From positions 558,001 to 622,000 of the forward strand of contig NZ_CP147243.1 in NCBI RefSeq assembly GCF_037198285.1: DNA of 64,000 nucleotides. Reading direction: 5' to 3'. This stretch comes from Haladaptatus sp. DJG-WS-42. Its GTDB lineage: Archaea; Halobacteriota; Halobacteria; Halobacteriales; Halococcaceae. Every line of letters begins with the position of its first letter. The first letter of the stretch is position 1. The position numbers were made by a program, and so were the translations under genes. Positions 26,851-37,362 of the stretch are shown here, piece by piece. Below the pieces are notes generated by a model. It did not search any database. It saw only the letters and a list, made by a program, of their open reading frames with translations, and had not been told where the DNA came from.

Positions 26851-27447
26851 GTGACCCGATTTCAGAACACGCGGCAACCAGATTGGGACTGGTGGGGCGA
26901 ACTCTGGCCCGACCCAGTCGGGTTGTTGGAGAAAGTGGGTGTAGCCAAGCGAGATACGCTCGCAGACGTGGGCTGTGGCAACGGCTACTTTACCATTCCC
27001 GCGGCGACGATGCTCGAAGGACAGCTCTTCGCGATCGACCTCGACGAGTCACTCCTCTCACAGTTGCGTGCGGAACTCGACGAGCGAGCCATCGACAACG
27101 TCACCTGCGTCTGTTGTGATGCTCGTTCGCTCAGTGACCACATCCCACCCGTGGACGTGGCGTTCATGGCGAACACCTTCCACGGCGTTGAAGACCAGAC
27201 CGAATTTGCTGCCGAAGTCCGACGAACCCTCACCAGCGAGGGACGGTTTATCGTCGTCAATTGGCACGACTTACCCCAAAGTGAAACCGTCGTCGCTGGG
27301 AAGACGCGTGGCCCACCCGAGACGCTTCGGCTGACGCCAGAAGCGACACGCGAACGAGTTGTTCCAGCTGGGTTCGAACTGGTGTCCGAACGCGAACTGC
27401 CGCCGTATCACTACGCGCTCGTGTTCGAGCGAACAGAAAAATCCTAG
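26851..27447 (+). CDS. Class I SAM-dependent methyltransferase
   Basis: The 198-residue protein, with a GTG start, opens MTRFQNTRQPDWDWWGELWP. It has the SAM-binding motif I LADVGCGNGYFTIPAA near residue 37, an acidic residue on strand 2 (FAIDLDESLL) and motif IV-like VDVAFMANTFHG. It resembles UbiE/Methyltransf_11-type enzymes. The substrate is unknown. The stop codon overlaps the convergent PAP2 gene by 4 bp. The start is inferred from the conserved tryptophan-rich segment, not from an upstream signal. Confidence 0.85.
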   Translation: MTRFQNTRQPDWDWWGELWPDPVGLLEKVGVAKRDTLADVGCGNGYFTIPAATMLEGQLFAIDLDESLLSQLRAELDERAIDNVTCVCCDARSLSDHIPPVDVAFMANTFHGVEDQTEFAAEVRRTLTSEGRFIVVNWHDLPQSETVVAGKTRGPPETLRLTPEATRERVVPAGFELVSERELPPYHYALVFERTEKS

Positions 27448-28286
27448 CGAAGCCGGTTCAAGACGGGCAGCTCCCACGGATCTTTCCGCAGGAACTCGAA
27501 CACTTCGTAGTGGTGGCGAGCGATGTGGACGCTCCCGAGGCCGAGCATCGTTCCGGCGACAACGTCAGTGCCCCAGTGGATGCCGAGATACATCGTCGCC
27601 ATTACGACGCTCGCGGCGAGGAAGATGCTCGTCGGAAGCCAGTAGGGGTACTCTTTGCGCGTAAACCACGCGAGATACGCCACCGACACCGACAGCGAGG
27701 TGTGAAGCGACGGGAAGACGTTCGTGTTCGAGTTGACCTCACCCGTGAGCAGTTGCGACTGCGGGTACATCGAGTACATGAGCGGGTCGACGAGGTCGGG
27801 AATCAGGTTTCGTGGCCCATACGAGACGAACAGGATGTAGAACACGAGGCCGAGTGAGTAGTTGAGCGCGAAGGCAACGGCTGTTTGTTTCAGGTGTTTC
27901 GTCTCCCGCATCGCGAACGTGAGCACGAACGGGAACACGAGCAAGAACACGTAGCCGTAGAGGTAGATGAAGGAGAAGTACACGGTGAGCTGGTCGGTGG
28001 CAATCGACTGGATGAACGCGACGAAATCACCCTCTATCTGGTAGATGTAGCTCGTGATGTTGAGGCCAACCACCCACGAGATTTCCGGGCCGACCTGCCT
28101 CGCTACCTTGTTGATGCCGAGGATACCGAGGAGCAAGCCAAGATACGGCCCTGCTTCACGCAAGCGCGTCTGCCACGATTCGCGCAGTAGCGAGAGTTTC
28201 GTGGGGCCAATGAGCGTGAGCGACCCAACGGCAATCATTACGCCAACGCCAGCCGCGAGATACGCGAGAATGTCGAGTAGTGCCAT
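27444..28286 (-). CDS. Phosphatase PAP2 family membrane protein
   Basis: The 280-residue protein has about 6 membrane helices and the PAP2 motifs C2, NVFPSLHTSLS (the SxHT core), and C3, LGIHWGTDVVAG (with the catalytic His). The C1-like part is YGPRNLIPD. This is the inositol-phosphotransferase/AUR1-like type, which dephosphorylates lipid or isoprenoid phosphates at the membrane face. It lies 4 bp downstream of the binding-protein gene on the same strand, so the two are probably co-transcribed, and the LssY-like protein lies further upstream. Confidence 0.9.
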   Translation of the reverse strand: MALLDILAYLAAGVGVMIAVGSLTLIGPTKLSLLRESWQTRLREAGPYLGLLLGILGINKVARQVGPEISWVVGLNITSYIYQIEGDFVAFIQSIATDQLTVYFSFIYLYGYVFLLVFPFVLTFAMRETKHLKQTAVAFALNYSLGLVFYILFVSYGPRNLIPDLVDPLMYSMYPQSQLLTGEVNSNTNVFPSLHTSLSVSVAYLAWFTRKEYPYWLPTSIFLAASVVMATMYLGIHWGTDVVAGTMLGLGSVHIARHHYEVFEFLRKDPWELPVLNRLR

Positions 28287-28290
28287 TTGC

Positions 28291-30153
28291 TTATCGCCTC
28301 AGAAGTTCGCCGGATTCGTTGTATCGGAAGCCAGCTTCGCGGAATGATTCTTTTGCGAGTTCCACGTCGAGCGTGCCGTCCTCACCCGGGAAGGGAAGTT
28401 CAGGGTCTGTATCCGCCCAGACCAGATTCGGTGCGATCTCGGGATACGGGGCAAGCGGCGAGGCAATCGGCTCTGCATAGCCACCGAACACCTCGCTTAC
28501 GATGTACTGTTTGTCGAGCAGTTGCGCAACCGCCCGGCGAAAGCGCGGGTTGCTGAGCGGCGACTGACGGACGTTAAATCCGACGTGGTAGAACGACGAC
28601 GGCTTCGAGACGTGCAGTCTGAGCGCATCGGACCGGCCAATCTCGGCGATGACATCAGCGCCGAGTGGCGAGGCCGTCGCATCGACTTCGTCTTCTTCTA
28701 ACAGCGCAAGCGCCGCCCCATCGGAGGGCACGACGGTGAATTCGAGTGCCGAGGGCTCGAACCCACCTTGATACGGCGCGAGTGGCCCGTCGAACTCGCT
28801 CTGGCTGAGGAAGTGTGCCTCGAACGGCGCAAGCGTCAGCGACGCACCGCCTTCTGCGCTCACGAATTTAAGCGGTCCCGAGCCAACAGGCGTTTCGTTG
28901 CTCCAGATGAGCGCTTCGGTCACCCCGCCACCGGTGTCGAGACCGGCAATTGTGGCTTGGCCGGTTTTCGTCTCCCAGATGTGCTTTGGGAGCAGGGGAA
29001 GCGTGAACGCCGCCGTTGCCACTTCACGGCTGACGGCTTCAAACTCGATGCGGACGGTGCGGTCGCCCGTTTCAATTGCGTCGGCCACGAGCGTCGAGCG
29101 GTCCCGGAATCGCGGGGCTGGAACCGGACTTTCCAACTCTCCGACAGACGTGTCGGTTACGAAGTCGTAGGTGAACGATACGTCCTCGCCGGTGATGGGC
29201 GTGCCGTCGTGCCATTGGAGATCGTCGCGGAGGGTGAGTTCTGCGGTTGGCCCGGGTCCGGTCGACTCCACCCACTCCCACGAGCGGGCAAGCCACGGGA
29301 CGAGCTCGCCGTCGATGCGGCGGGCAAGTGGGTCGTACAACAGGTCCGTGATGTCGCCGTCACCGCGAAACTCAACGGCAATCGGGTTGAGATTCCGCGT
29401 TGCACGAGCATCCGTAAGCGTCATCCGAAGCGGCGGCTGAGTCGGCTCTTGAGTGGTATCTGTCTCGTTCGCGGTTTGATTCGTCGGTGTCGTCGGTTCT
29501 GTTACGTCCACCGTCGAGCGAAGGCGGAGATACCCGAGCGGCGTGTGCATGTCGGCCGCAGACCAGCCAGCGAAGCGGTCGCCTTGGGTCGCCCGTATCT
29601 CGTCTGGAATGGCGACTGGCGCGAACGGCTGGTCGCGCGCGACGGCCACTTGGGTCTCGTGGAGGGTTTTGACGCGGGCGTTGCCCGCTTGGCGGCGTTG
29701 GCTGTCGAGCAGGTCGTCGACGCCGAGATTTGCGTACCCAAACGGGTTCTGCCAGCCGGGTTCTGCGTCGAATCGTGAGTGGAGCAGCGAGTAGAGGAAC
29801 GTATCGCCATCGGTCGCCGGATGGCGCATCACGTAGATGTCGAACGACTGGTTCAACAACGTATCGCGTAGGAGTTCCTCCTCGGTCATCGGGACAATCG
29901 AGGTTTCGATGCCAACCTCGTTCAGATTCGACGAGAGTTGGCGCGCGATGTGCGTACACCGGGGGTCTGCATCTGCGGGGACGGTCTTTATCGACAGTGA
30001 AACCTGCTCTGGAGTATCGCGGTTTGCGAGCGAGCGGAGTTGGCGAATACACCCGCTGGTGGCGAGGAGACCGCCGCTCGCGAGACCCGCGAGCAGGTCG
30101 CGGCGACGAAGCGATAGCGAAGGGGCAGACGGAGAGGGAGGGTCAGGGGACAT
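28291..30153 (-). CDS. Peptide-type ABC substrate-binding lipoprotein with apparently permuted domain order
   Basis: The 620-residue protein has a twin-arginine lipoprotein signal (RRRDLL, lipobox ATSGC at Cys35). Residues about 241-620 match SBP family 5 from its usual N terminus: LLYDPLARR, WHDGTPITGEDVSFTYD, FNVRQSPLSNPRFRRAVAQL and FREAGFRYNESG. The match stops where family 5 would normally go on with its last third. Residues about 50-215 look like that missing third (ARQLSSNLNEVGIETSIVPM, FDIYVMRHPATDGDTF). They are joined to the rest by a Thr-rich linker (216-240). The domain is therefore circularly permuted. No permease or ATPase genes are adjacent. It is expected to be anchored outside the cell. 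Confidence 0.85.
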   Translation of the reverse strand: MSPDPPSPSAPSLSLRRRDLLAGLASGGLLATSGCIRQLRSLANRDTPEQVSLSIKTVPADADPRCTHIARQLSSNLNEVGIETSIVPMTEEELLRDTLLNQSFDIYVMRHPATDGDTFLYSLLHSRFDAEPGWQNPFGYANLGVDDLLDSQRRQAGNARVKTLHETQVAVARDQPFAPVAIPDEIRATQGDRFAGWSAADMHTPLGYLRLRSTVDVTEPTTPTNQTANETDTTQEPTQPPLRMTLTDARATRNLNPIAVEFRGDGDITDLLYDPLARRIDGELVPWLARSWEWVESTGPGPTAELTLRDDLQWHDGTPITGEDVSFTYDFVTDTSVGELESPVPAPRFRDRSTLVADAIETGDRTVRIEFEAVSREVATAAFTLPLLPKHIWETKTGQATIAGLDTGGGVTEALIWSNETPVGSGPLKFVSAEGGASLTLAPFEAHFLSQSEFDGPLAPYQGGFEPSALEFTVVPSDGAALALLEEDEVDATASPLGADVIAEIGRSDALRLHVSKPSSFYHVGFNVRQSPLSNPRFRRAVAQLLDKQYIVSEVFGGYAEPIASPLAPYPEIAPNLVWADTDPELPFPGEDGTLDVELAKESFREAGFRYNESGELLRR

Positions 30154-30309: not shown

Positions 30310-31686
30310 TTACACCCAGCCGAGCAGTGGCCAGACGAGCGAGCACACCCAGAGGACGATGCCGCCGATAAAGTGGCGATTAATCCGTCCGTCGCCAGCC
30401 CCGTACCGCGCGCCGCCAGCTGCGATAATCCCAATGGCCACCGAGAGCACAATGCGGTGGAGCATGACGTTCACCGGAATCACCTCGATATCGATGTAGG
30501 CGTAGTCTGCGAGAATCCCAAAGCCAAGGCCGAACATGGCGAGGAAGAACGCATCGTCGCGCTCGAGCGGCTTGGCGAGGAGGTACGCCGTGAGCGGAAT
30601 CCCGCCCGCGATCATCGGGTAGAAGAACGCCGCGATGAGCTTTGGCGACTCCGTGATGCCCCACGACTCGACGGCGACGGCACCGACTCTGACGGCCAGC
30701 ATGATGGTGACCATCGAGCCGAACAAGAGCACGCTTCGAGGCGGGAGCGGCCATTGCGCACTGCGTTCGCGTACCTCGTCCAGCACGTCGTCCGTGCGCC
30801 GAGAGAGTGCGGGAACCAGCGCGAGTCCGAGCAGTGAGGCGAGCGACAGCGCAGTCGAATTCGTGTCGTCCAGTTCGACGCCGCTTCGATACCCTTCATC
30901 GAGGTCGATGATGGTTGTCCAGCCGTCCGCGTCGATGGTGCGGCGTGTCGCGTGATACTCTCTCGTGACGTCCGTCACGAACGGCGCGCCGATGAGGTCG
31001 CGTTCGACTTCTGTCCGGCCCTTTTCGAGGCTCCCGACGGTGTGACGGAGCCGGAACCAATCCCAGTGTTCGTGGTGGATTTGCATGGCCGTCCACGCAG
31101 ACTCGCCCGAACCACCCGCGTAGAGGCGGATGTGCGTGCGCGTGCCGAGATACGTGCCGTCGTGAACCTGGTACGTTTCTGGAACCCAGATGCCACCCTG
31201 ATTCGTGGGGTCTACCCCGGTCACGCCAGTCTGTCCGGCGGGATTGTGAATATAGACATAGCGGTCTGCACCGCGCGTACTCCCCCAGTTGATGCGCGGG
31301 CCGGGCTGTTGGCCGACGGGTTTCTCAGGTTGGGCAGGCACCCATTCGTCTCGCGTGACGTTCCACTCCGCGTCCGTCTGCTCCATCAAGATATACCGAA
31401 CGCGCGTCGCGTTCCCTGTCACAATCATGTTGATAGGGAGCGTCCGCTCGCTGAACGAGTGCGACCGACTCGTGTACGGCCACAGTCTCGCCGTGCTGTT
31501 GGCGTCGGCTTCGACGAGATGGACGCCTTCGGGGGTTTGTTGGAGGGAAGAGATCCGAGAGGCGTCTTGAACCGTCGTCGGATTGGCGAAAACCAGCAGC
31601 GAAAGGACGACGATTACGGCGGCAGAGAGGATGAGTACTCGCCGTCGGTCGAGTTTGTCAAGCATCCATTTGGGGAGTATGGGCAT
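30310..31686 (-). CDS. Membrane protein with LssY_C-like exterior domain
   Basis: The 458-residue protein has one N-terminal helix (RRRVLILSAAVIVVLSLLVF). Outside it is a domain of about 230 residues (30-270), with THIRLYAGGSGESAWTAMQ and a His-rich EVERDLIG segment, vaguely like the LssY C-terminal domain. About five helices follow (320-455). LssY_C domains are found fused to DedA/PAP2 lipid enzymes in bacteria, and a PAP2 gene lies nearby on the same strand; this supports the weak match. Function is unknown; an envelope-lipid role is a guess. Confidence 0.6.
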   Translation of the reverse strand: MPILPKWMLDKLDRRRVLILSAAVIVVLSLLVFANPTTVQDASRISSLQQTPEGVHLVEADANSTARLWPYTSRSHSFSERTLPINMIVTGNATRVRYILMEQTDAEWNVTRDEWVPAQPEKPVGQQPGPRINWGSTRGADRYVYIHNPAGQTGVTGVDPTNQGGIWVPETYQVHDGTYLGTRTHIRLYAGGSGESAWTAMQIHHEHWDWFRLRHTVGSLEKGRTEVERDLIGAPFVTDVTREYHATRRTIDADGWTTIIDLDEGYRSGVELDDTNSTALSLASLLGLALVPALSRRTDDVLDEVRERSAQWPLPPRSVLLFGSMVTIMLAVRVGAVAVESWGITESPKLIAAFFYPMIAGGIPLTAYLLAKPLERDDAFFLAMFGLGFGILADYAYIDIEVIPVNVMLHRIVLSVAIGIIAAGGARYGAGDGRINRHFIGGIVLWVCSLVWPLLGWV

Positions 31687-31738: not shown

Positions 31739-33166
31739 TTATTCGTCAGCGTCGAGCGCGTGCCAGGAGAGCTGTGGGTTGCGGGCAGCCTGTACTTGGT
31801 CGATTCTGCGGGCGGCCGTCCGACTTGGTGCGGCTTCGAGTACCTCGGTGTCTTCGCCAACGACGTTGTTGAATGCGGTGGCGAGCTGGTCTAACGTCTC
31901 ACGGTTCTCGATTTCCGTCGGTTCGGTCATGAGCGCCTGCGAGACGATGTCCGGCCACTTCGTCGTTGGCGGGTGGACGCCGAAGTCAAGCATGCGCTTT
32001 GCCACGTCGGCTGCGTCTTGGTCGCCTGCACTGGCGACGAACTCGTGGTGGAACGGGCCGTAAGGCACCTCGTAGTCAATCTGGCTTGCGAGATAGTTCG
32101 CATTAAGCACCGCTTTCGCGCTCGCATCCGAGAGGCCCGCGTCGCCAAGCCGGTCGATGTAGGCAAACGCCCGGACGAGGACGAGCCAGTTGCCGTGGAA
32201 GCCGTGGACCTTGCCAATCGACTGTTCGGGGTCTGCGAGTTTGTAGCCACCCTTGTGGCGCTTGATATGCGGGCGTGGGAGGAACTCTTTGAGGCGCTCT
32301 GTGACCCCGACCGGGCCAGCACCCGGCCCGCCCCCGCCGTGGGGCGTGGCGAACGTCTTGTGGACGTTGTAGTGCATGATGTCGAAGCCCATGTCGCCGG
32401 GGCGCGCCCGGCCGAGCAGCGCGTTCAGATTCGCGCCGTCGTAGTAGAGCAAGCCGCCAGCGTCGTGGACGAGTGTGGCGATTTGCTCGATGTCGCGCTC
32501 GAACAGGCCAAGCGTGTTCGGGTTCGTGAGCATGAGCGCCGCTGTCTTTTCAGACACCGCAGCTTCAAGGGCGTCTAAGTCAACGCGCCCGTCGTCGTTG
32601 CTCGGCAGGGAAACCACGTCGTAGCCCGCGAGCGCCGCAGTTGCGAAGTTGGTTCCGTGTGCCGAATCCGGGACAATGATTTCCGTGCGTTCGTCGTCGC
32701 CGTTCGCCTCGTGGAAGGCTTTGGCGATGAGGATGCCCGTGAACTCACCGGCCGCGCCCGCGGGTGGCTGGAGCGTGACGGCGTCCATGCCGCCGATGCG
32801 CCCGAGGTAGTCCTGCAGTTTGTAGAGCAGTTCGAGCGTCCCCTGAATCGTCTCGTCCGGGCGTTCGGGGTGGACGGCTCCCGCGGGAATCGTCGAGATA
32901 TCGTCGGTAAACTTCGGGTTGTACTTCATCGTACAACTGCCAAGCGGGAACGGCCCCGACTCGATGCCATAGTTCATCTGGCTCAGCCGGGTGTAGTGGC
33001 GTGCAAGTTCGGGCTCTGAAAGGTCTGGGAGTTCGAGTGAGTCTCGCGTGAGCGAGGCCGGAAGCGGCGAGTTCTCGATTTTCACGTCTTTCGAACTCTT
33101 CTCAGAGAGGAGCGGTTCGTACACGTCGCCAGAGTCGTCCGTCCAGCGGGCTTGGTCGTAGAACAT
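31739..33166 (-). CDS. gcvPB: Glycine dehydrogenase (aminomethyl-transferring) subunit 2
   Basis: The 475-residue protein has the PLP-binding motif NVHKTFATPHGGGG, with the Lys that forms the Schiff base, and the GcvP-beta pattern LGSCTMKYNPK. It is half of the P protein, which decarboxylates glycine and moves the aminomethyl group to the H protein lipoyl arm. It starts one base after the stop of gcvPA and should be co-transcribed with it. Length fits the split form of the enzyme found in archaea. Confidence 0.97.
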   Translation of the reverse strand: MFYDQARWTDDSGDVYEPLLSEKSSKDVKIENSPLPASLTRDSLELPDLSEPELARHYTRLSQMNYGIESGPFPLGSCTMKYNPKFTDDISTIPAGAVHPERPDETIQGTLELLYKLQDYLGRIGGMDAVTLQPPAGAAGEFTGILIAKAFHEANGDDERTEIIVPDSAHGTNFATAALAGYDVVSLPSNDDGRVDLDALEAAVSEKTAALMLTNPNTLGLFERDIEQIATLVHDAGGLLYYDGANLNALLGRARPGDMGFDIMHYNVHKTFATPHGGGGPGAGPVGVTERLKEFLPRPHIKRHKGGYKLADPEQSIGKVHGFHGNWLVLVRAFAYIDRLGDAGLSDASAKAVLNANYLASQIDYEVPYGPFHHEFVASAGDQDAADVAKRMLDFGVHPPTTKWPDIVSQALMTEPTEIENRETLDQLATAFNNVVGEDTEVLEAAPSRTAARRIDQVQAARNPQLSWHALDADE

Positions 33167-34501
33167 CTAGGCGACCTCCGTGAATGCCGCGACGAACTCA
33201 TCGACGGCGACGGCGTTCGTTTCGGTGACGCACACTTGGACCTCGTGTTCACCGACTTGATGGACGGCGAAGCCTTTCTCTGCGAGGTCTGAAACGATCG
33301 CTGCCGCGGGTTGGTCGGTGTGGGCAACGAACTCACGGAAGTGATAGCGGTCGTGTACCGGCGCTTGGACGCCGCTGATGCTGTCAAGTCGTTCTGCGAG
33401 TTCTTCCGGGCGCGTCACACAATCTTTTGCGAGGTCAACGAGCCCGTCAGGGCCGAGCATCGAAATGTGCATCGCCGCACGGAGTGCGACCCACGCCTGA
33501 TTCGAGCAGATGTTCGAGGTGGCGCGCTCGCGGCGGATGTGCTGTTCGCGCGTCTGGAGCGTGAGCGTGTACGCACGCATGCCAGCCGAATCCTCAGAGA
33601 TGCCAACGAGGCGGCCAGGAACCTGCCGGAGGAACTTCTCGCGGCAGGCGAAGATGCCAAGCCCCATGCCGTAGCTCGTCGGGATGCCGAGCGTGGAGGC
33701 GTCGCCGACCACGACGTCCGCGCCAACGTCTGCGGGTTTTTCGAGCAGTGAGAGTGCGACGGGGTCACTGCCGAGGGTGAAAATCGCGTCGTGGTCGTGG
33801 GCGAGTTTGCCGAGTTTTGCGAGATTTTCTTCGATTGTCCCGCGGACGGTCGGGTTCTCTGCGTAAATCATGACCACGTCGTCATCGATGATTTCGGCGA
33901 GTGCGTCTACGTCCGCGTTGCCGTCACCCATGGGGAACGATTCGACGACCATCTCGGAGCCATCGACGTAGTTTTCGAGCACGTCGCGACGGCCCTCGGA
34001 GATGGACTTGGGGACGAGTACGCGGTGACCAGAGGTCTGACGCAGGCGGTGTGCGAGCGTCGCCGCCTCGCCGAGTGCGGTGGCCGCGTCGTACATCGAA
34101 CAGTTGGCGACTTCGAGGCCTGTGAGTTCGACCAGCATCGACTGGTATTCGAACAGCACTTGCAGGAAGCCTTGGGCGACTTCGGGTTGGTACTGTGTGT
34201 ATGAAGTCAGAAACTCAGAGCGAATCGAGAGGTTGTCCACGAGCGACGGAATGTAGTGGCTGTAGTGGCCTCGGCCGAGGAACTCGGTGAGCGAGGCGTT
34301 GCGATTCAACATCTTTTCTGCGCGTGCGCGGACGTCCTGTTCACTGCGCTGTTTGATGCCGAAGTTGCCGTCGAATTTGATGTCGTCTGGAATGTCGAAC
34401 AGTTCCTCTTCGCTCGCGACGGAGAGTACGTCGAGCATCGCCTCCGTTTCTGCTGGCGTATGCGGAGCGAACGGACTGCCTGGTGTTGCTGAGTCACTCA
34501 T
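33167..34501 (-). CDS. gcvPA: Glycine dehydrogenase (aminomethyl-transferring) subunit 1
   Basis: The 444-residue protein is the alpha half of the split P protein ([44 protein letters not shown]). The start at 34501 ([14 protein letters not shown]) is preferred to an upstream in-frame TTG at 34510. It is separated from gcvH by 180 bp, including a T-tract terminator, so gcvPA-gcvPB is probably a second transcription unit of the glycine cleavage system. The gene is intact. Confidence 0.96.
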
Positions 34502-34665
34502 AGTTTGCAAAGAAACGCTGTTGTCCGGTTTGTGGCCGCACGATGGTTGGGTGTTACAGACAATGGCATATGATTGCGTCGATTATCACGACGGTGTGTA
34601 TCGACAGTACGTCAGCGCAGGCGCGATACATGTCTGTGCATTGGGTCACGACACCGGGACACATG

Positions 34666-34670
34666 AAAAA
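34666..34670 (-). terminator. Oligo-T terminator after gcvTH
   Basis: Five A on the plus strand give a T-run on the transcript strand, 12 bp after the gcvH stop. This is a plausible archaeal terminator that separates gcvTH from gcvPAB. Confidence 0.4.
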
Positions 34671-34681
34671 GAGTCGCGTCG

Positions 34682-35065
34682 TTACGCGATTTGGTCTGCG
34701 TACGCCTCGGGCGTGAGGAGGGAGTCGAGTTCGCTCTCGTCTGCGAGTTCGAGTTCGAGCATCCAACCCTCGCCGTACGGGTCGTCGTTTACGAGTTCTG
34801 GCGCGTCGAACACCTGTTCGTTGACCGCCGTGACCGTGCCCGAAACCGGCGCATAGAGGTCGGAGACGGCTTTGATGGATTCGACCACGCCGAACTCTGC
34901 GCCTTGACTCACGTCGTCGCCAACGGCGGGCAGTTCAACGAACACGATGTCGCCAAGTTCGTCCTGGGCAAAGTCGGTGATGCCGATTTTTGCGGTTCCG
35001 TCTGCCGAGCGTGCCCATTCGTGCGATTCCTGATATTTGCGGTCGTCTGGTATGTCGAATGTCAT
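34682..35065 (-). CDS. gcvH: Glycine cleavage system H protein
   Basis: The 127-residue protein begins [19 protein letters not shown]. It has the lipoyl-Lys site in the motif [19 protein letters not shown], where the Lys of ESIKA is lipoylated. It shuttles the aminomethyl intermediate between P, T and L proteins. The ATG overlaps the gcvT stop by 4 bp, so it is translationally coupled to gcvT. Length matches bacterial and archaeal GcvH. The L protein gene is not in the window. Confidence 0.97.
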
Positions 35066-36171
35066 TGGTTGAAGGGGAGTGATTTGATGACTGCTTTCTT
35101 TGGTTTGCCGCGGACGAGGACGTGAATCGTCGTCTCCGGCTCTGCGTAGGAAACGGGAACGTACCCAAGCCCGATGGGTTCGCCCAGCGTTGGGCTCATC
35201 GTCCCGCTCGTCACTGTGCCGATATGCTCCTCATCCGTGTTAGTAATATCGTAGCCGTGCCGGGGGACGCCGCGCTCGACGAGTTGGAAGCCAACGAACT
35301 TCTCTGCGACGCCCTCTGCCTGTTGGGCTTCGAGCGCGTCGCGGCCGATGAAGTCCGTGTCGAGTTTTACGGTGAAACTGAGGCCCGTTTCGTACGGCGT
35401 CCGTGGGTTTTCTTCGGCGTTGAAATCCTGCCCGGAGAGCAGGAACCCCATCTCCATGCGGAGCGTGTCGCGCGCGCCAAGCCCACACGGCTGGGCGTCG
35501 AACAGCGACCACACCGCTTCGGCGTCGTCCCACGGTGCGAGGATTTCAAAGCCGTCTTCGCCCGTGTAGCCGGTGCGCGCGACGATGCACTGTGCGCCAT
35601 CGAACGAAACGGTCGTTGCCGTGAATTTGCGCAGATTCTGGACAAGGGTTGGCTCGTCCGGCGTGTGGTCATCGACGGCCTCGATGAGCAGGTCTTCTGC
35701 CTCTGGGCCTTGGAGCGCGAACATCGCCCAATCGGCGGTGACGTTCTCGATTGTGGCGTCGAGGTCCCACTCGTCGCGGTGCTGTTTCCAGCGCCGTTCC
35801 ATCTGTTCGTCGTGGCCCGCGTTCGGGATGAACAGATAGTCGCCGTCTACGTCCTCCGGCAGCCGGTAGACGACGGTGTCGTCTAAGATGACGCCGTCGT
35901 CGTTCGTAATCATCGAATACTGTGCGTCACCCGGAGAGAGCGCCGTCACATCGTTCGAAGTGAGCCGCTGCATGAGCGCCTCGGCGTCGGGGCCGGAGAC
36001 GGTGATTTCGCCCATGTGACTCACGTCGAAGATACCGGCGGTCTCCCGAACGCTGTCGTGTTCGGTTCGGATTGAGTCGAACTCGACGGGCATATCCCAG
36101 CCGCCGAATTCGGTGAACTTCGCACCGCGGGCGTCGTGGACGCCGTGCAGTGGTGGTTGCAGAAGGCCCAT
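35062..36171 (-). CDS. gcvT: Glycine cleavage system aminomethyltransferase T protein
   Basis: From ATG 36171 the protein has 369 residues and opens [19 protein letters not shown]. It carries the folate-binding features of Gcv[31 protein letters not shown] and [13 protein letters not shown]. It releases ammonia and gives methylene-tetrahydrofolate or its tetrahydromethanopterin-like carrier. A longer open frame up to 36345 adds 58 non-conserved residues. A TATA-like CGTTACTT on the minus strand, about 30 nt before 36171, favours the shorter start. Confidence 0.94.
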
Positions 36172-36426
36172 ATCTGTCCGGTCGCACCCCCGCCAAGTAA
36201 CGTTTTGGAGTTGCGTGTGCGCACTCATGGCACGACAGCAAAGTGATAAAAATCGTGTACAGTTCACAATGCTGGTGTTTTGAACGGTTAAGCGGGCGAT
36301 TTCGGCTCCCAGCGAAATTGTATGCGTGAGATGCGCACACACCATTATGCACGGGGTAAGCTTCCGATTTCACGGCCTTACTCGGCCTATAATAATGGGG
36401 GTCGTGTTTGTAAGGCGAAACTGACG

Positions 36427-37362
36427 ATGACGAACCGAAACACAACCCGCCGACGCTTCATTCAAGTGTCCGGCGTGGCCGCCCTCGCTGGACTCGCTGG
36501 CTGTTCGAGCAGCGGCGATTCCGACTCGACGACAACTGAGGGCACGACCGAGAACGCGACCGGGAATGAAACAACGACCGCAGCGACCACCACCGAGCAG
36601 GCGAAGGTGACGGTCGAAACGGACGCCGATGGACGGCTCGCGTTCGACGGTCCGACCAACGAGATGGAGCTTCCAGAAGACTCCAACCCAGAAGATGGCT
36701 ACCCGCCAGCGTTCGAAATGCAGCTCGAAGACGTCGAAATCGACGACTCTCGCTGGGAGTCAAAGACCATCGACGGAACCGAGATTACGCTCGTCCCGTT
36801 CGACGTTGCGTACTACTGGTACGTCCGCGGTGAAGCGCGCTTCCTCGACGCGCGCAGCCAGTCTGAGTACAACGTCTCGCACATCTACGGTGCGGTCGTC
36901 AGCCCCGCAAAGAGCGAGATGGAAAACGACCCCGTCGCAAGCTGGCCAAAAGAAGACAAAATCGTCGCCTACTGTGACTGCCCACACCACCTCTCCTCGA
37001 TTCGCGCTGCGGCGCTGAAAGCAGAGGGATACGAAGAGGTGTACGTCGTCTACGAAGGCTACGGCGCATGGCGCTCTGCGGGCTACCCAATGAAAGGGAG
37101 CAGCCCAAAAGAGGCCCCAAAAACGTGGACGGTCAACGGCAACGTAGACGCCGAGTACGCTGGTGAGGCCGCGTGGGCCTACTACGAAGACCAGAAAGAG
37201 GCGACCGAAATCGAGGAAGACGGGAGCTACACGCTCAACATCCGGTTCGTCAACGTCTCTGCTGACACCGAAGTGACCATCGAGACGCCCGCCTACGAAC
37301 TGGAGGCGACGCTCGGTGCGCTCACCGAAGGCTCCGTCTCCACCGACGGAACCGTCGAATAA
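36427..37362 (+). CDS. Rhodanese-like domain Tat lipoprotein
   Basis: From ATG 36427 the protein has 311 residues with a twin-arginine signal (TRRRFIQVSGVAALAG) and lipobox LAGC. A Thr/Glu/Ser-rich linker follows. A rhodanese domain begins near residue 135 (RFLDARSQSEYNVSHIYGAV), with the active-site loop YCDCPHHLS. The usual loop is Cys-x5-Arg; here it has a second Cys two residues on and a His pair. A beta-rich tail of about 80 residues closes the protein. It should lie outside the cytoplasmic membrane, perhaps handling sulfane sulfur or a metal. A TATA-like CCTATAATAATG lies near 36385-36396. Confidence 0.85.
   Translation: MTNRNTTRRRFIQVSGVAALAGLAGCSSSGDSDSTTTEGTTENATGNETTTAATTTEQAKVTVETDADGRLAFDGPTNEMELPEDSNPEDGYPPAFEMQLEDVEIDDSRWESKTIDGTEITLVPFDVAYYWYVRGEARFLDARSQSEYNVSHIYGAVVSPAKSEMENDPVASWPKEDKIVAYCDCPHHLSSIRAAALKAEGYEEVYVVYEGYGAWRSAGYPMKGSSPKEAPKTWTVNGNVDAEYAGEAAWAYYEDQKEATEIEEDGSYTLNIRFVNVSADTEVTIETPAYELEATLGALTEGSVSTDGTVE

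Follow-up and report, generated by a model that had tools for sequence, protein, structure and literature searches.

Substrate-binding proteins (SBPs) of family 5 (PF00496), represented by OppA, DppA, NikA and AppA, belong to structural cluster C. The family is among the commonest annotations in prokaryotes, and its permuted members are annotated only as 'ABC transporter substrate-binding protein'. In the open-access papers we searched, the sole natural permuted SBP found described was TpMglB-2 (Tp0684) of Treponema pallidum, a circularly permuted, lipid-anchored glucose-binding protein (PMC4990184). The subclass 'cluster Bc' was proposed for it by the authors of that study, who considered that the topology was perhaps related to membrane tethering, and the role of the anchor-bearing lobe was raised and left open (PMC4990184). 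For the mycobacterial lipoprotein LpqW, the reported role is in the flux of glycolipids (PIM/LM/LAM) and not in uptake (PMC3229680, PMC10928101). LpqW (PDB 2grv) has an oligopeptide-binding-protein-like fold, and to our knowledge it has no PAP2 partner.

We analysed a 64,000-nucleotide stretch of the Haladaptatus sp. DJG-WS-42 genome (hereafter the window), which encodes a permuted SBP belonging to a branch that we call class A. Like canonical family 5 proteins, the window protein showed homology along both halves, the features of an exported lipoprotein and a single SBP-type predicted fold; it differed in carrying the C-terminal third first, with its termini in domain III rather than domain I, and its branch differed in being without a permease. 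With TpMglB-2 it shared natural permutation and a lipid anchor. However, TpMglB-2 has a type I/cluster B sugar-binding fold from a different sequence family, whereas the window protein belongs to cluster C, and in TpMglB-2 the canonical N-terminal strands moved to the C-terminus, whereas here the C-terminal third moved to the front. The definition of cluster Bc (a cluster B fold with a permuted N lobe) was not met, as all family and structure matches were to PF00496/cluster C. The C-terminal third of the window protein matched LpqW (2grv) only weakly at residues 406-486 (E 0.087), and the position of this match fits the canonical order, unlike the permuted window protein. The membrane enzyme encoded beside the SBP shared its fold and catalytic motifs with PAP2_3 enzymes (inositol phosphorylceramide synthase Aur1 9vj4/9ivc, PgpB and LpxE), and differed in its haloarchaeal lineage, its unidentified substrate and its being encoded with a permuted SBP. 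No report of a permuted family 5/cluster C SBP, and nothing on an SBP-PAP2 pair, was found in the open-access literature searched; subscription papers and preprints were outside its scope.

A circularly permuted family 5 binding protein

The window gene (28291..30153, minus strand) was an open reading frame with an ATG start, encoding 620 aa followed by a stop codon. Residues 1-35 (30049..30153, minus strand) contained a Tat signal (LRRRDLL) and a lipobox (TSGC35) ending at Cys35, and both motifs were kept in 87/87 class A relatives. Residues 50-212 (29518..30006, minus strand) corresponded to the canonical C-terminal third, here placed first, and residues 241-620 (28294..29433, minus strand) to the canonical N-terminal two thirds, ending in ..KESFREAGFRYNESGELLRR, the new C-terminus of the permuted protein; both assignments were based on PF00496 and profile matches. 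A Thr-rich linker at residues 216-240 (29434..29508, minus strand) joined the canonical C-terminus to the canonical N-terminus. The corresponding linkers of class A had a median length of 11 aa (range 5-69). Two N-X-T sequons, N225 and N229, were present in the window linker, and are possible N-glycosylation sites in an exposed loop.

The protein in its natural order matched Pfam SBP_bac_5 in two pieces and in reversed order, with residues 283-615 aligned to model positions 1-284 and residues ~55-127 to positions 290-364. Membership of PF00496 was well above the curated cut-off (153.6 bits versus 32.4), and both halves were detected. Searched as fragments, residues 241-620 matched model positions 1-284 (E 9e-40) and residues 41-215 matched positions 290-364 (E 4e-4). 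When the two halves were swapped, a single continuous match to positions 1-364 was obtained (E 4e-48, 164.9 bits). The same reversed pair for the window gene turned up independently in a whole-genome scan. The Pfam model ends near position 368, and the last ~80 module residues of the family were supported by profile work instead.

Separate profiles for each of the two modules were built from diverse relatives and compared with PDB chains of family 5. The C-third profile matched residues ~355-500 of these chains (best E 6e-22; 81 distinct sequences at E <=0.01), and the N-part profile matched residues ~15-345 (best E 1e-61). None of the 60 top PDB matches to the permuted profile extended beyond one module, and the window C-third searched as a single sequence gave a weak match to PDB chains (E 0.0013), unconvincing alone. 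Against a canonical profile of 498 columns, made from haloarchaeal and bacterial canonical proteins, the class A proteins on their own aligned with their first part at columns 335-483 (probability 98.9) and their second part at columns 25-332 (probability 100). The breakpoint is therefore sharp, with the canonical 'LLxEAGY' helix immediately before it, and together the two modules cover the canonical protein. The break corresponds to about residue 340-375 of DppA/OppA. Published domain boundaries of OppA put this position in domain III and the native termini in domain I, and the anchor thus shifts to the other lobe.

AlphaFold predicted the window protein as one confident fold (mean pLDDT 80.5, pTM 0.78), with low confidence at the linker (~216-240, pLDDT about 38-55). 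The predicted model met the description of a two-lobe SBP fold, with SBP5 structures as its best PDB matches. In Foldseek, the best matches were all of SBP5 type, and ~400 columns were aligned to canonical SBPs with a TMq of about 0.4, a value expected because one module alone can match in sequence order. These sequence profiles and the predicted fold identify the window protein, as firmly as sequence data allow, as an SBP of family 5 (PF00496, structural cluster C) with a circularly permuted chain, without a solved structure or a non-sequential structural superposition. The N-to-C order that characterizes canonical family 5 was reversed in the window protein and in all sampled relatives.

An earlier sequence-only reading had proposed that this gene encodes a circularly permuted family 5 SBP, with the residues after the lipobox forming the missing C-terminal third and a Thr-rich linker (about 216-240) leading to the canonical N-lobe. 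All three claims held: the reversed Pfam match, the profiles and the single predicted fold bore out the permutation, residues 50-212 matched the C-terminal third of the family, and the linker had low pLDDT. Its expectations of two partial, reversed Pfam matches that merge on swapping and of one compact AlphaFold fold were both met, the latter in a model only, and the outcome that would have refuted it, residues 50-215 without a match to the C-terminal part, did not occur. Its suggestion that the membrane anchor moves to a different lobe was supported (domain III versus domain I, by the OppA boundaries).

Distribution, branches and origin of the permuted proteins

A profile of the permuted protein matched in 277/394 Halobacteria genomes, covering 73/86 genera (E <=1e-60), and about 110 neighbourhoods were fetched, mostly one or two per genus. 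Among ~120 sampled relatives, all full-length family ORFs that brought in loci had the C-then-N order in one reading frame. Over all loci, an order classifier called 204 ORFs permuted and 40 canonical, a tally that includes repeat counts from overlapping loci and a few genomes fetched twice. Since 40 canonical proteins were recognised by the same kind of classifier, it was not biased to one answer. Both other genomes of Haladaptatus have a close full-length relative (90% and 77% identity). A local rearrangement or assembly artefact in this genome was ruled out, as the order was shared by the other genomes of the genus and by about 120 genes in a genus-level sample. One match on a Cytobacillus plasmid (L220), permuted by coverage, proved to be canonical.

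The permuted SBPs thus sampled make up a large archaeal and bacterial family, in which many members serve as binding proteins of Opp/Dpp-type ABC importers, and they fall into two branches: class A, which contains the window gene and is widespread in Halobacteria, and class B, which is found with ABC operons. Class B genes stand at the head of complete Opp/Dpp-type ABC operons, both in haloarchaea and in bacteria (Alphaproteobacteria among them). Opp/Dpp-type permease genes lay directly 3' of 25/33 class B ORFs, usually in the order permease-permease-ATPase-ATPase, and a Halanaerobiales MAG (L044) was among the ORFs with permease genes directly after. Permuted proteins of Alphaproteobacteria were 46-52% identical to the L044 protein over nearly the whole length. 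In the three L044-like loci opened (Nitratireductor, Roseomonas and Ketogulonicigenium), the permuted SBP heads permease-permease-ATPase-ATPase genes, and a more distant permuted SBP of Maritalea lies within an ATPase-permease-permease-ATPase operon. Judged by having a cognate permease and ATPase encoded alongside, most class B genes qualify as parts of an ABC importer, whereas the window gene and class A do not. The simplest and probable view of class B systems is that they are functional ABC importers whose binding protein is permuted. On three alphaproteobacterial plasmids (L216, L217 and L218), permuted SBP operons also contained M28/M20 peptidase and hydantoinase/oxoprolinase genes, a hint of cyclic or modified peptide substrates in the transporter branch.

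The 23 class A ORFs placed on the tree formed one clade (support 100). L173, labelled class B on that tree, belongs to this clade and has no adjacent PAP2. Permuted SBP5 proteins from four bacterial genomes (L209-L212, from G492, G582, G406 and G453) were nested inside the canonical clade; they end at the same breakpoint, 'LLREAGYKVD', and permease genes lie beside them, as seen in L249-L251. An AU test constraining all permuted proteins to one clade gave p 0.0435 with 110 rows and p 0.106 with a trimmed set of 75 rows. Because these tests were borderline, a second, independent permutation at the same breakpoint is a possibility that L209-L212 suggest and do not demonstrate. Canonical proteins from the same family as the window genome (L010/L017/L018) stood beside class A on the tree with weak support (50). 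Their reversion from class A to canonical order was considered; one of their neighbourhoods (L248) contained an ordinary permease-permease-ATPase set.

Class A, its PAP2 partner and their proposed role

Four nucleotides downstream of the window SBP gene lies a gene (27444..28286, minus strand) for a 280-aa integral membrane enzyme of the PAP2_3 (Aur1/PgpB-like) type. It matched PF14378 with 64.9 bits (cut-off 27; E 1e-17) and PF01569 with 39 bits, and the GPR, PSLH and HxxxD motifs that define the PAP2 superfamily were present. The predicted structure had a pLDDT of 91.9, and its closest Foldseek matches were inositol phosphorylceramide synthase (TM 0.52-0.54) and LpxE. The PAP2 homologs in the sample were highly conserved, with 41-88% identity to the window copy, and the catalytic motifs GPR, PSxH and HxxxD were intact in 78/78 of those at the loci. 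By the positive-inside charge pattern, the Arg-rich first loop is inside and all catalytic residues are outside; the active site is thus predicted to face outside, on the same side as the lipoprotein.

PAP2 was directly beside 82/87 sampled class A genes, the remaining 5/87 being without an adjacent PAP2. It was directly downstream of 78/87, most <=12 nt away and many overlapping the stop codon, and directly upstream of 4 tandem second class A copies. A strong partner PAP2 was present in 50 genomes, and these were the ones with a strong class A SBP; in nine genomes without class A the PAP2 matches were weak, at most 91 bits. Where a class A gene had no adjacent PAP2 in G050, G150, G192 and G270, a PAP2 was retained elsewhere in the genome; G161 had a second, paired SBP-PAP2 copy. 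No permease gene directly flanked any of the 87 sampled class A genes, the window gene included. Genome comparison shows that in Halobacteria the class A genes stand apart from permease genes and are paired with a PAP2_3 enzyme gene in a conserved unit of two genes, although the linkage is not absolute. A strong functional tie between the class A SBP and PAP2 is very likely on the grounds of adjacency and co-occurrence, which provide no evidence of ligand hand-over.

We consider it likely that the permuted chain order, the class A-PAP2 unit and service to a lipid-phosphate enzyme, not uptake, belong to one explanation, for which there is no biochemistry and in which ligand, reaction and contact are inferred or unidentified. 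The permutation shifts the lipid anchor out of domain I and into domain III. In this view, the lipoprotein would lie at the external membrane surface, close to the active site of PAP2, both the topology and the contact being inferred. It may bind a phosphorylated headgroup or a glycan that is extracellular or located in the outer leaflet (the ligand is likewise inferred), and either present the bound compound to the outward-facing active site or gate or regulate PAP2 when ligand-bound. PAP2 would act as a phosphatase or phosphotransferase in surface lipid or glycan metabolism. A bolder reading, which as one joint claim we favour by a narrow margin, is that there is a large undescribed class of permuted cluster C SBPs in archaea and bacteria, that the breakpoint has perhaps arisen at least twice, and that one branch in Halobacteria left transport and became a dedicated extracellular ligand-presenting or ligand-sensing subunit of a PAP2 lipid-phosphate enzyme.

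If true, class A would show, on a wide scale, a lipid enzyme putting the binding protein of an importer to new use. Given the close PAP2 pairing in most haloarchaeal genera, the functions of both proteins are open to genetic study in laboratory strains. Permuted and canonical proteins that both have permeases are ready pairs for asking whether the anchor-bearing lobe affects docking or ligand release. The sequence-only reading had foreseen that the moved anchor could alter docking on a permease or serve another purpose. The latter was supported for class A by the PAP2 pairing, and the former is applicable to class B, whose permuted SBPs head ABC operons.

Among the rival explanations, the one that survives best is that the permuted fold no longer binds free ligand and instead supports or regulates PAP2 as one of its subunits, in the manner of a chaperone, an anchor or a gate. 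It is favoured by the tight PAP2 pairing and by LpqW, a lipoprotein of related fold for which a part in glycolipid flux, not uptake, is reported (PMC3229680, PMC10928101). However, the core motifs of class A (GWQNPFG..., FYHVGFNVR and SNPxFRR) are strongly conserved, which favours a kept cleft on sequence evidence only, without pocket analysis, and we regard this explanation as unlikely. A second rival holds that class A is an orphan SBP feeding an ABC permease encoded elsewhere, with PAP2 merely co-transcribed. In its favour, the sister branch clearly serves Opp/Dpp permeases, the window genome has four Opp-type permease pairs, and bacterial orphan SBPs that share a permease exist. Against it, each of the four pairs is already next to its own canonical SBP5 gene, and therefore none is left for the permuted SBP; furthermore, class A has no directly flanking permease, 82/87 genes adjoin PAP2, and its presence and absence track PAP2. 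This second rival is very unlikely. The weakest rival denies the permutation and takes residues 50-212 for an unrelated domain fused ahead of a truncated SBP, or the ORF for an artefact. It rests on the weak single-sequence match to PDB chains (E 0.0013) and is all but excluded by the C-third profile, which matches many solved SBPs in the right, C-terminal, region (E 6e-22), by the mapping to canonical columns 335-483 of 498, by the continuous swapped Pfam match and by conservation of the order in about 120 archaeal and bacterial genes. The first three of these results also rule out a fused unrelated domain.

Copies and surroundings of the SBP-PAP2 pair

The SBP-PAP2 pair was fully repeated in tandem at five loci (L038, L104, L105, L128 and L148), and an SBP-PAP2-SBP arrangement was seen at four (L041, L042, L102 and L143). 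Such repeats and second SBP copies occurred largely in Natrialbaceae (L038, L041 and L042) and in the family coded f4. On a Salinigranum rubrum plasmid (L168, L257), the class A SBP was split into two ORFs beside an intact PAP2, a decaying copy.

The upstream neighbour of the window SBP (30310..31686, minus strand) encodes a 458-aa membrane protein that Pfam does not match and for which about 7 hydrophobic segments are predicted. Homologs with 28-78% identity were found near class A genes in 13 other loci (14 with the window), often just upstream of the SBP on the same strand, and this gene is likely part of the same gene group as the SBP. A PMT/GT39-like membrane protein (12 loci) and an arylsulfotransferase-fold protein (16 loci) were also recurrent near class A genes, and a phosphoglucosamine mutase was found near the SBP-PAP2 pair in two plasmid records. 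From these neighbouring genes we infer that class A may operate in the context of surface glycan or lipid metabolism, and not of nutrient uptake.

Elsewhere in the window, an ORF at 36322-37362 (plus strand) read by eye as lipoprotein-like (RRRFIQ...LAGCSS), with an apparent rhodanese-like stretch (YWYVRGEARFLDARSQSEYNVSHIYGAV...VAYCDCPHHLSS); it is divergent from apparent glycine-cleavage genes at 31739-36345.
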